Assembly (NCBI RefSeq): GCF_013408685.1
Contig: NZ_JACBZY010000001.1
Location: 3,162,001 to 3,226,000, forward strand
Direction of reading: 5' to 3'
DNA length: 64,000 nucleotides
Origin: Schumannella luteola
Lineage (GTDB): Bacteria > Actinomycetota > Actinomycetes > Actinomycetales > Microbacteriaceae
This document shows positions 6,632 to 14,466 of this stretch, one piece after another. The notes beneath the pieces were generated by a model that saw nothing but the letters and a program-made list of their open reading frames with translations, ran no database searches and had not been told where the DNA came from. Position numbers and translations under genes: made by a program. The first letter of the stretch is position 1, and every line of letters starts with the position of its first letter.

Positions 6632-11363
<4,732 letters not shown>

Positions 11364-11367
<4 letters not shown>

Positions 11368-12524
11368 GAGCTGTAGGCCGAGTTCTCGTGCACGTAGTCG
11401 TGCGTGAGGTCGTTCGTGTAGATCGTCGCCTCGGCCGCGCCGTAGTGCAGGTCGATCAGCACGTGCACGGCGCGCGAGCTCAGGTCGACCTCGTCGCGCG
11501 GGCGGTCGGGCCCGCCGGCAGAGCAGACGCGCACGCCGTTCATGCTCACGTCGACCGCGTAGGGGTCGAAGGGCGCCTGCGTCGTGCCGATCGCGGCGAG
11601 CACGCGACCCCAGTTGGGGTCGTTGCCGAACACGGCCGCCTTGAACAGGTTGTTGCGGGCGACCGAGCGGCCGACCTCGACCGCGTCGGTCTCGGTCTCG
11701 GCGCCGACGACCTCGATGGCGATGTCGTGGCTCGCGCCCTCCGCGTCGCCCTGCAGCTGCAGCGCGAGGTCGAGGCTGAGCTCGCGCAGCGCCTCGGCGA
11801 ACTCCGCCAGGTCGGGCGTGACGCCCGAGGCGCCGCTCGCGAGCAGCGTCACCTGGTCGTTCGTCGACATGCAGCCGTCGCTGTCGAGGCGGTCGAAGGT
11901 GACGCCCGTGGCGGAGCGGAGCGCCGCATCCAGCTGGGCGGAATCGAGTACGGCGTCGGTCGTGATCACGACGAGCATCGTCGCCAGACCCGGGGCGAGC
12001 ATGCCCGCGCCCTTCGCCATGCCGCCGAGGCTCCAGCCGGCGGCCGAGCGGTAGGCGGCGGTCTTGGCGTGGGTGTCGGTCGTGATGATCGCGGCGGCGG
12101 CGTCCGCTCCCGCCTCGTCGCTCGTGTCGAGCGCCTCGGCCGCGGCGGACACGCCTGCGAGCAGCTTGGCGCGGTCGAGCTGGTCGCCGATCAGGCCGGT
12201 CGAGCAGACGAGCACATCGCCCGCATCCACGCCGACTGCCGCGGCGACGCCCTCGGCCGTCGCGTGGGTGGTCTGGAAGCCCTCGGCGCCGGTGAAGCAG
12301 TTCGCCCCGCCGGAGTTGAGCACGATCGCCGAGACCTGGCCGTCGGCGATGACCTGGCGCGACCAGATGATGGGGTTCGCCTGCGCGCGGTTCGAGGTGA
12401 AGACGGCCGCGGCGGCGTTGAGCGGGCCGCGGTTCACGACGAGCGCGAGGTCCTGGTTGCCGTTCGACTTGAGCCCGGCGCGCACGCCGGCGGCCGCGAA
12501 TCCGGCGGGGGTGGTGACGGTCAC
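11364..12524 (-). CDS. argJ: Bifunctional glutamate N-acetyltransferase / ornithine acetyltransferase
   Basis: Transfers the acetyl group from acetylornithine back to glutamate; a precursor self-cleaves before the Thr of the ATML motif. [16 protein letters not shown] is present near residue 180 with that Thr. [14 protein letters not shown], near residue 70, forms part of the active site. Length is 386 residues. An argA homologue is not needed when ArgJ is bifunctional. The ATG at 12524 overlaps the argC stop. Confidence 0.95.
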
Positions 12525-13591
12525 GGGGCGACTCCGTTCACGGGAAGGCCGAGGGTCTCATCGAGCCCCAGGGCGAGGTTGGCCGACTGGATGGCGGCAC
12601 CGGCCGTGCCCTTGACGAGATTGTCGAGGGCGCTGACGACGACGACGCGGCCGGCCCGCTCGTCGACGGCGAGGCCGACGAGCACGGTGTTCGCGCCGGT
12701 CGTGTCGCCGGAGCGCGGGAACACGCCCTCGGGCAGCAGGTGGGCGAAGGGCTCGTCGGCGTAGGCGGCCTGCCACGCGGCGCGCACCTCGGCGGCGGTC
12801 ACGCCGGGCGCGAGCTTCGCGGTCGAGGTGGCGAGGATGCCGCGCGACATCGGCACGAGCACCGGCGTGAACGAGATGCTCACCCCGGTGCCGCCCGCGG
12901 CCGTGAGGTTCTGGATGATCTCGGGCACGTGGCGGTGCACGCCGCCGACGCCGTAGGCCGAGGCCGAGCCGGCGATCTCGCTCGCGAGCAGGTTCGTCTT
13001 CAGGCTCTTGCCGGCGCCCGAGGTGCCGACGCTGAGCACGCTGACCAGGTCGTCGGCCTGGATGACGCCGGCCGCGATCCCGGGCGCGAGCCCGAAGGTG
13101 ACGGCGCTGACGTTGCAGCCGGGCACGGCGATGCGCTTCGTCTGCGCCAGCTCGGCGCGCTGGGCGGCGGCGGTCGCGGTCGCCGGGGTGTCGGCGTCGG
13201 CGCGCGGCAGCTCCGGCATCCCGTAGGTCCAGGCGCCGTAGTACTCGCCGCCGTACCAGGTGGCCCAGGCCTCCGGGTCGGTCAGGCGGTGGTCGGCGCC
13301 GCAGTCGACGACGAGCACGTCATCCGGCAGCTCGGCCGTGATCGCGCCCGAGGCGCCGTGCGGCAGCGCGAGGAAGACCACGTCGTGGCCGACGAGCGAC
13401 GCGGCCTCGGTGGGCTTCAGCACCAGCTCGGCGTAGGTGAGCAGGTGCGGGTGCACGGCGGCGAGCTTCTCGCCCGCGTTGCTGTGCGCGGTCACCGTGG
13501 TGACCTGGAATTCGGGATGCGCGGCGAGGAGGCGAAGGAGCTCGCCCCCGGCGTAGCCGCTCGCGCCGGCGACGGCGACGGAGTAGGACAT
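12521..13591 (-). CDS. argC: N-acetyl-gamma-glutamyl-phosphate reductase
   Basis: NADPH-dependent reduction of N-acetylglutamyl phosphate. There is an N-terminal Rossmann motif ([16 protein letters not shown]), the catalytic Cys in [12 protein letters not shown] and the [17 protein letters not shown] segment. Length is 356 residues. It is the first structural gene of the arginine unit. TGAGG (13604-13600) lies 8 bases before the ATG at 13591 as the ribosome binding site, and an Arg-rich leader ORF precedes it. Confidence 0.95.
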
Positions 13592-13674
13592 GGCGGATAC
13601 CTCAGGATGTCAGCGACGGACGTGGATGCGGGGCGGCGACGTCAGCGCTGGTGAGGCTCGGCTCGTGGCCAGGC
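13592..13674 (-). promoter_or_regulatory. argC leader region between leader ORF and argC
   Basis: These 83 bases separate the leader ORF stop from argC. CCTCA (13656-13652) is complementary to the argC ribosome binding site TGAGG (13604-13600), so a structure hiding the site is possible. GGGGCG and CGTC near the end of the leader ORF can also pair with GACG and CGCCCC downstream. I see no T-tract, so a classical intrinsic terminator is not evident. The structural reading is by eye only. Confidence 0.35.
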
Positions 13675-13758
13675 TCAGCGGCGGGACGACGCCCCGGTTC
13701 GGCGCGTACGACGAAGACGTCGAGCAGCACGCTGCTGAGCTCCGGTCGTCAGGTCCAC
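13675..13758 (-). CDS. Putative Arg-rich leader peptide upstream of argC
   Basis: A 28-codon ORF starting at GTG 13758 and ending at TGA 13675. The peptide reads (M)DLTTGAQQRAARRLRR, then TRRTGASSRR: 9 of 27 residues are arginine, clustered in its second half. A TAGGGT -10 box (13770-13765) sits exactly 6 bases before the GTG, which would make a leaderless mRNA beginning at this codon. AGGG could alternatively serve as a weak RBS. Position, arginine content and the leaderless start together suggest an arginine-sensing attenuation peptide. No leader peptide of this kind is confirmed here, and arginine codons are common in high-GC DNA. Confidence 0.5.
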   Translation of the reverse strand: MDLTTGAQQRAARRLRRTRRTGASSRR

Positions 13759-13764
13759 GCGTCG

Positions 13765-13795
13765 ACCCTAGCGCGCCGCGCGACGGCCGACACAA
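13765..13795 (-). promoter_or_regulatory. Promoter of the arginine unit
   Basis: TAGGGT (13770-13765) is the -10 box and TTGTGT (about 13795-13790) a possible -35 with a 19-base spacer. The predicted start base is 13758, the first base of the leader ORF. I do not see an obvious ArgR (ARG) box. Confidence 0.5.
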
Positions 13796-13896: not shown

Positions 13897-14466
13897 ATGT
13901 CGGACATCGATCAGCTGCTGAAGACCCTGCCCGTCGGCGACATCGCGCGCCAGGTCGGCGTCGACGAGGACACCGCCCAGGATGCGCTGCAGCAGATCCT
14001 GCCGGGACTCGTCGGCGGGTTGCAGGCGAACGTCGCCGACGGCGGCGAGGCCTCGCTCGAGAAGGCCCTCGGCTTCCACCAGGGTCGCTCGCTCTCGCTC
14101 GCCGATGTCGACGAGGCGGACGGCCAGAAGATCGTCAAGAACGTCTTCGGCGACAACGCCGCCCCGGTGGCATCGAAGCTCGCCGACTCGAGCGCGAAGT
14201 CGTCGGTCACGCAGGGGCTGATCGAGAAGATCCTGCCGATCGTCGCGCCGCTCGTGCTGGCCTGGCTCGCGAACCGCTTCTTCGGGCAGAAGGATGCGGG
14301 CGGCTCGGCGAGCGCGGCGCCGGCGTCGACGGGCGGCGGCCTGGGCGACATCCTCGGCGGACTGCTCGGCGGCGGATCGGGTTCCTCCGGCGGGTCGAGC
14401 TCGGGCGGCGGCATCGGCGACATCCTCGGCGGGCTCGGCGGGCTGCTCGGCGGCGGCAAGCGCTGA
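13897..14466 (+). CDS. DUF937 domain protein
   Basis: Protein of 189 residues. Residues about 1-130 form the alpha-helical DUF937 domain (ARQVGVDEDTAQDALQQILP, then VSKL-like segments and a hydrophobic stretch IVAPLVLAWLANRFF). The C-terminal 55 residues are Gly/Ser-rich repeats built around GDILGGLLGGG. The function is unknown. The ATG at 13897 follows GGAGG by 5 bases, and a TAGCCT -10 lies near 13842. It converges on pheT, with a shared terminator hairpin between them. Confidence 0.8.
   Translation: MSDIDQLLKTLPVGDIARQVGVDEDTAQDALQQILPGLVGGLQANVADGGEASLEKALGFHQGRSLSLADVDEADGQKIVKNVFGDNAAPVASKLADSSAKSSVTQGLIEKILPIVAPLVLAWLANRFFGQKDAGGSASAAPASTGGGLGDILGGLLGGGSGSSGGSSSGGGIGDILGGLGGLLGGGKR

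Follow-up and report, generated by a model that had tools for sequence, protein, structure and literature searches.

In the 64,000-nucleotide (nt) stretch of the Schumannella luteola genome analyzed here (contig NZ_JACBZY010000001.1, positions 3,162,001 to 3,226,000; hereafter, the window), the genes of arginine biosynthesis form a minus-strand operon with the order argC-argJ-argB-argD-argF-argH, as backed by Pfam domain assignments, and a short open reading frame (ORF) rich in arginine (Arg) codons is located directly upstream of argC, in the same orientation. This leader ORF comprises 27 codons, from a GTG at 13758-13756 to a TGA at 13677-13675, and encodes the peptide MDLTTGAQQRAARRLRRTRRTGASSRR with nine Arg residues; the GTG is preceded, with a spacer of six bases, by a TAGGGT hexamer (13770-13765), and the ATG of argC is at 13591 on the minus strand. 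An earlier reading of this DNA (hereafter, the sequence-only reading) had pointed to the ORF with its nine Arg codons, to the TAGGGT six bases before the GTG and to the position of the ORF ahead of an argCJBDFH unit, all of which is borne out, the coincidence of the transcript start with the GTG being a prediction still; the same reading had counted six Arg codons within 11 codons, of which the clustering stands whereas the number is seven (codons 10-20). The leader peptide is identical in the congeneric region L002 and differs by a single residue in L003. No match at the Rfam gathering score was detected in the window.

Table 1. Features of the leader region and the arg operon in the window, in the order of the predicted transcription
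Feature	Coordinates	Strand	Basis
-10 element TAGGGT, predicted leaderless promoter	13765..13770	-	sequence; layout conserved in relatives' leaders
Leader ORF, 27 codons, 9 Arg, GTG start, TGA stop	13675..13758	-	sequence and family scan
In-frame CGA (Arg), 8 nt upstream of the 5' arm, putative site of stalling	13699..13701	-	CGA at this place in 107/109 leaders
Hairpin 5' arm GGCGTCGTC, inside the last leader codons	13685..13693	-	covariation across 65 relatives
Hairpin 3' arm GACGTCGCC, ending 43 nt before argC	13635..13643	-	family median 40 nt
Segment from the hairpin to the argC ribosome site	13604..13634	-	C-rich family-wide (C 44%, G 22%)
GAGG, probable argC Shine-Dalgarno sequence	13600..13603	-	sequence; Shine-Dalgarno-like core in 108/111 leader-bearing regions
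argC	12521..13591	-	Pfam semialdehyde dehydrogenase domains; family-wide matches
argJ	11364..12524	-	Pfam ArgJ, E 8.8e-124
argB (amino acid kinase family)	10429..11367	-	Pfam AA_kinase; name from operon context
argD (class-III aminotransferase)	9197..10432	-	Pfam Aminotran_3; name from operon context
argF (ornithine carbamoyltransferase family)	8265..9200, start approximate	-	Pfam OTCace_N and OTCace
argH (argininosuccinate lyase)	6811..8298	-	Pfam Lyase_1 and ASL_C2

To assess conservation, we assembled 220 argC-upstream regions from the genus of the window, from 80 loci on genome contigs and from further genomes of Microbacteriaceae, and reduced them to 199 distinct ones by identity over the last 200 nt upstream. 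These were scanned for a TANNNT hexamer followed after 5-9 nt by an ATG or GTG that opens an ORF 8-60 codons long, containing four or more Arg residues and at least 13% Arg and located 60-330 nt upstream of argC. The scan was satisfied in 111 of the 199 regions, in four of which (L024, L028, L096, L107) the ORF found is the end of pheT. Although spacings from 5 to 9 nt were permitted, the distance between TANNNT and the start codon is 6 in 84 leaders, 7 in 25 and 9 in two; GTG is used as the start by 58 and ATG by 53; the leaders stand at a median of 168 nt from argC, and Arg, at 27%, is their commonest residue. Leaders of widely differing sequence retain their Arg content, start layout and distance from argC; conservation of the ORF, of its Arg codons and of the spacing to the start is what the sequence-only reading had proposed to check. 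It had also cautioned that chance must be excluded, Arg codons being frequent in GC-rich DNA. Composition does contribute, given that scans with other residues yield 43 of the 199 regions for Ala (many through the very ORFs found with Arg), 21 for Leu, 15 for Ser and fewer for the rest, the ORFs being partly shared; nevertheless, the Arg scan recovers about 3 regions out of 199 in controls (3/199 reverse complements, a mean of 2.85/199 in simulated first-order Markov sequences, and 7 hits, or 0.3%, in 2271 windows drawn at random from genomes), and the fixed CGA codon, the covariation and the genome-unique covariance match described below are no easier to reconcile with chance. The leader ORF is accordingly confirmed as a real feature, far above chance; a chance origin is rejected at the family level by the scan controls, and we assign it a vanishingly small probability. 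Outside Microbacteriaceae but within the same order, none of 43 argC regions passed the scan, the argC start being doubtful in L285, L291 and L296.

The second conserved element is a hairpin. After two leaders with an implausible ORF or distance (L122 and L146) had been excluded by judgement, all 109 remaining leaders contain a helix of 6 to 15 pairs between a GGCG at the leader end and a downstream CGCC; both tetranucleotides were required in the search, so these four pairs are not independent evidence, whereas the upper pairs are. The 3' arm ends at a median of 40 nt before the argC start (10-90%: 37-45), and 53% of the real regions attain a hairpin score of 20 or more, compared with 0.6% of Markov controls. 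Covariation points in the same direction: in an alignment of 65 sequences from outside the genus of the window, 92.0% of the cells are paired (82.1% in shuffled alignments), 63 cells carry double changes (27.1 shuffled) and the covariation score is 0.269 (0.109 shuffled), none of 500 shuffles reaching the real value of any of the three; a separate permutation over the two stop-codon types gave 0.759 versus 0.652 and 0.847 versus 0.672. The predicted stability (mean -28 kcal/mol, z -2.27, 102/109 below -1) is partly due to the selection of the arms and was gauged against first-order Markov samples rather than exact shuffles. The GGGGCG/CGCCCC pairing suggested by the sequence-only reading exists and turns out to be the edge of this family-wide hairpin. 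Of the other pairing proposed there, between a CCTCA and the TGAGG at the argC ribosome site, the complementarity is present as written, and its conservation is not: by inspection of the five genus members, CCTCA is present in L001-L003 and absent from L004 and L005.

A covariance model built from 65 of the 85 listed sequences, with the genus of the window and near-copies excluded, matches the window site with 43.9 bits (E 4.7e-5), the only significant match in the whole genome; the next matches there reach 22.4 bits (E 0.46) and 20.8 bits (E 0.90), the best 150 of 19818 first-look candidates having been scored. When 149 genomes from across the order were searched, 11 matched the model at E 0.01, nine of them Microbacteriaceae; the two in another family (E 0.004 and 0.010) have their matches away from argC, and at least two genomes of Microbacteriaceae (G414 and G154) gave no match.

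The sequence-only reading made no mention of a CGA codon that is found at a fixed distance from the hairpin arm. In 107 of the 109 leaders, an in-frame CGA precedes the GGCG arm by 8 nt; the exceptions are L069, with CGT at this place, and L129, in which the script picked another arm and in which, by eye, CGA occupies its usual place before a TAGGCG arm. This positional constraint is all the more conspicuous given that CGA accounts for 3.3% of the 1170 Arg codons in the argC genes of 79 of these loci. The remaining Arg codons of the leaders are also biased, 684 of 749 being CGC, CGT or CGA as against 63% in argC, and the share of CGG among Arg codons is 8.5% in leaders versus 30.5% in argC. 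A ribosome should cover about 13 nt from the first base of its A-site codon (the toeprint distance), and with CGA in its A site it should therefore cover the GGCGA of the arm. The 45 tRNA genes matched in the genome include one tRNA-Arg gene for each of the anticodons ACG, CCG, TCT and CCT and none with a UCG anticodon. Under the wobble rule for tRNA-Arg(ICG), as given in PMC10454642, the single tRNA-Arg(ACG) gene implies that CGC, CGT and CGA should all be read by one single-copy tRNA.

These features bear on the possibility that the ORF exists mainly for the sake of its product, a small Arg-rich peptide with a function of its own, rather than as a cis regulator. Some C-terminal residues do recur, such as RRISATPxR in many leaders, but they fall where the CGA codon and the arm of the hairpin are located, whereas length, N-terminus and stop position vary, the stop having shifted relative to the arm many times; we consider this explanation very unlikely.

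Taken together, the observations lead us to propose the following mechanism. The leaderless transcript would begin at the GTG of the leader, as suggested by the TANNNT-N6-GTG layout, and would be translated at once. Under a shortage of charged tRNA-Arg(ICG), the ribosome would halt in the Arg cluster, particularly at the fixed CGA; with this codon in the A site, its leading edge would, judging by the spacing, cover the GGCG 5' arm 8 nt downstream, the hairpin would be blocked and argC expressed. When arginine is plentiful, the ribosome would pass, terminate and leave, so that the hairpin could form and expression of the operon would fall, most likely through termination of transcription before argC, which is the least certain step. 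That Arg codons of this leader mediate attenuation of one kind or another appears highly probable, and the stalled ribosome very probably switches the arg genes on when arginine is scarce; the full and best explanation of the data, namely an arginine attenuator that precedes argCJBDFH and acts through the ribosome, is likely. The spacing of CGA, arm and hairpin favors a single repressive hairpin masked by the CGA-stalled ribosome, a version of the model that we regard as reasonably probable. A transcriptional rather than a translational output is given only a slight preference. The attenuation interpretation offered by the sequence-only reading thus gains support from the family-wide conservation and from the absence of detectable ArgR control described below.

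As for the classical alternative, in which stalling would allow an antiterminator to form instead of a downstream terminator, a leader peptide with a GC-rich hairpin is indeed the arrangement of the ilvB1 attenuator of Mycobacterium tuberculosis, as described in PMC13236596. However, the RNAalifold consensus for our sequences contains one hairpin only, with no second conserved helix, and the sequence after the masked 5' arm folds no better than the controls (z 0.14, 0/109 below -1), which argues for one conserved hairpin with no sign of a competitor and renders the two-hairpin scheme improbable. In some sequences, the Arg codons can be paired by eye with the C-rich stretch to give an outer helix, but this helix is missing from the RNAalifold consensus as well and was dropped.

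The stretch that follows the hairpin is rich in C and poor in G (44% and 22%, respectively, versus 34% and 35% in leader-less regions) and, together with the scarcity of U-runs reported below, indicates that a standard intrinsic terminator is not what is found here. The same two features are those expected for Rho-dependent attenuation, whereby this stretch would load Rho after the leader ribosome has left. Yet it spans only about 26 nt, and stalling would free the C-rich 3' arm, which is expected to help Rho rather than to hinder it; such a scheme seems rather unlikely.

The most serious competitor is translational attenuation, in which folding of the leader RNA would occlude the argC start until a stalled ribosome frees it, similar to what is reported for the cysteine genes of Mycobacterium smegmatis. 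An argC Shine-Dalgarno-like core is present in 108 of the 111 leader regions, whereas 52 of the 87 leader-less regions examined have a TANNNT-N5-8-start and no such core, so that argC tends to look leaderless where the leader is absent and Shine-Dalgarno-led where it is present; the distance from the hairpin to the start codon is also steady, and the predicted accessibility of the argC AUG rises upon masking of the leader from 0.51 to 0.61 in the family mean. Predicted accessibility of the Shine-Dalgarno sequence itself, by contrast, stays flat (0.514 to 0.516; 19 up and 19 down of 109), about 40 nt lie between the 3' arm and the ATG, and the complementary CCTCA lacks conservation. Pairing of CCTCA with the argC ribosome site was accordingly rejected as a general mechanism, CCTCA being absent from two of five genus members and the predicted accessibility of the site unchanged on masking. 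On balance, translational attenuation is a minority possibility.

Several observations weigh against the proposed attenuator and should be set out together. The leader was not found by the scan in 88 of the 199 regions of the family, and the leader-less lineages (Clavibacter, Rathayibacter, Subtercola, Herbiconiux and others) also lack a detectable ArgR, so that the leader is neither a strict substitute for this repressor nor the only solution adopted in the family. With GGCG and CGCC fixed in the arm search, four pairs and part of the stability of the hairpin are inherent in the selection. A run of four or more T within 15 nt of the hairpin is present in only two of the 109 leaders. In the window itself, the predicted accessibility of the argC AUG increases from 0.22 to 0.58-0.98 upon masking of the leader, as would fit translational control. 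Finally, consecutive CGA codons are reported in PMC10454642 not to impede translation in Bacillus subtilis, and hence slowing of translation by CGA is not certain.

The usual regulator of arginine biosynthesis appears to be missing from this family. The ArgR C-terminal domain (PF02863) was detected in none of the 84 genomes of the group, comprising five of the genus of the window and 79 reached via argC loci (most although not all of them Microbacteriaceae, and not necessarily complete; L013 was excluded as a copy of L004), and was detected in Corynebacterium glutamicum and seven other controls. Across the order, ArgR is present in 178 of 198 genomes and in 178 of the 182 outside Microbacteriaceae; the 20 genomes lacking it are all 16 of the family and four others, three of 0.8-1.1 Mb and one fragmented. 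The motif TGTATRNTYATGC, which overlaps the leaderless argC start and which we take to be the ARG box, occurs upstream of argC in 25 of 43 regions outside the family and in none of the 199 within it, in agreement with the failure of the sequence-only reading to see an ARG box; no similar motif was found upstream of argC in the window. In the 43 regions from other families (part of L223-L248, and L280-L299), argC is apparently leaderless and TGTATAGTTATGCAC overlaps the start region, as if an ARG-box-like operator had merged with the -10 element and the start codon.

In some Microbacteriaceae, the same arrangement is embedded in the gene for the synthetase subunit PheT. A CGA-N5-GGCG is present in the last codons of 14 of the 95 pheT ends found, and in 13 of these (L022, L024, L027, L028, L037, L040, L047, L057, L071, L096, L107, L207 and L212, representing Curtobacterium, Frigoribacterium, Frondihabitans and four other genomes) pheT ends 55-75 nt before argC and the stem reaches into the gap. 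An in-frame TANNNT-N6-GTG within pheT is seen in L024, L028, L096 and L107, and also in Frondihabitans L057. Judging from these sequences, the role of the leader may be taken in these genomes by the 3' end of pheT. Other pheT ends encoding R-x-G-A use CGA in 12 of 68 cases, and CGA alone is therefore weak evidence there. At both of their ends, the leader peptides of L063, L075 and L218 are similar to the C-terminus of PheT (MDNYRETG...GERLRATLRS vs DDYRGxG...ERFGATLRD), hinting that a leader could have been copied from, or fused with, the pheT end; the pheT-borne form lies inside the leader-bearing family on the argC tree, a position that is also compatible with a later capture.

On this tree, which was built from 138 rows by a quick method and leaves 41 of its 134 inner branches open, about nine changes are needed to account for the presence and absence of the leader, and the leader types defined by the stop position relative to the arm require 11 and 14; the presence of leaders on deep branches suggests an early origin followed by several losses. 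The comprehensive scenario, namely that a one-hairpin, position-coded attenuator, with CGA at a fixed 8 nt and one isoacceptor sensed, arose after the loss of ArgR and includes the pheT-borne form, is conceivable and somewhat short of an even chance.

The leaderless layout itself seems to be nothing unusual among the genes of this genome. The window contains 59 TANNNT sites, 19 of which have an ATG or GTG 6 or 7 nt downstream; 16 of these head ORFs of at least 74 codons and two run past the window ends, leaving the 27-codon leader as the only short ORF among them. With no fewer than 16 long ORFs preceded by TANNNT-N6/7-ATG/GTG within 64 kb, leaderless genes seem to be common in this genome.

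Upstream of the leader, Pfam searches identify a DUF937 gene and pheT. The DUF937 gene (13897-14466, plus strand) sits between pheT and the leader on the opposite strand, its start being divergent from the leader promoter. The argG gene of this genome (L300) is outside the window, elsewhere on the chromosome; it is of a divergent type and not part of the arg operon, and no Arg leader was detected upstream of argG of this unlinked type in 20 regions including that of the genome analyzed here, several of the automatically picked starts possibly being off.

If the proposed mechanism holds, it offers a possible answer to the question of how arginine synthesis is controlled in a large family without the nearly universal ArgR, and it would represent the exchange, within one order, of one regulatory logic, a DNA operator, for another, a translated RNA leader. 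The fixed distance between CGA and the hairpin provides a sharp test of the position of the stalled ribosome. Should the pheT-borne form be real, the 3' end of an essential synthetase gene would be the arginine sensor for the next operon.

Repression via ArgR and the ARG box has the same target operon and depends on a DNA-binding repressor that is not detected in Microbacteriaceae. By analogy, the nearest known relative of the arginine leader would seem to be the leaderless polycysteine short ORFs of mycobacteria, which Canestrari et al. are said to have described in 2020 as a case of stalling-based attenuation. The likeness consists in a short leaderless ORF with many codons for the amino acid made by the genes that follow, and in stalling-based attenuation, which for our leader is deduced; the differences are the amino acid (arginine), the argC operon, the family, the single covarying hairpin and the fixed CGA. 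The start of the ORF at the first base of the transcript is in our case predicted from the TANNNT-N6/7-ATG/GTG layout, and release of the Shine-Dalgarno sequence by stalling, as in the polycysteine type, is not predicted, the computed accessibility being unchanged on masking. The ilvB1NC operon of M. tuberculosis likewise has a leader ORF with regulatory codons and a hairpin before the first gene, but, according to PMC13236596, with branched-chain amino acid codons, a terminator, an antiterminator and a U-tract, as opposed to the one hairpin without a U-run and the ORF predicted to start at the first transcript base. For the LEU element and the trp, cys and ilv leaders of Actinobacteria, leader peptides of amino-acid operons are supported by comparative evidence of the same kind; the survey in question, which included Leifsonia xyli, reports no conserved RNA structures upstream of arginine operons (PMC1262725). 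Arginine is sensed through rare Arg codons by the leader peptide rbfL of Staphylococcus aureus, which, unlike ours, is Shine-Dalgarno-led, uses AGA and AGG and represses a biofilm regulator on arginine shortage rather than controlling arginine biosynthesis (PMC13009471). The carA leader of Pseudomonas aeruginosa precedes an arginine- and pyrimidine-linked gene, but attenuation there responds to pyrimidines, and both phylum and gene differ (PMC4997734). In a literature search that covered few subscription papers, no paper among those examined describes a leader peptide that senses arginine ahead of the arginine-biosynthesis genes of actinobacteria. With regard to the classical trp type, both mutually exclusive terminator/antiterminator helices and a U-run were looked for and neither was found, whereas the hallmark of amino-acid attenuators in the broad sense, a short ORF enriched in codons for the product upstream of the biosynthetic operon, is present (111/199 regions, Arg 27%), as is a conserved covarying structure, the formation of which may, judging by the spacing, depend on the position of the ribosome. 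We therefore class the arginine leader as a variant of the actinobacterial amino-acid leader attenuators.
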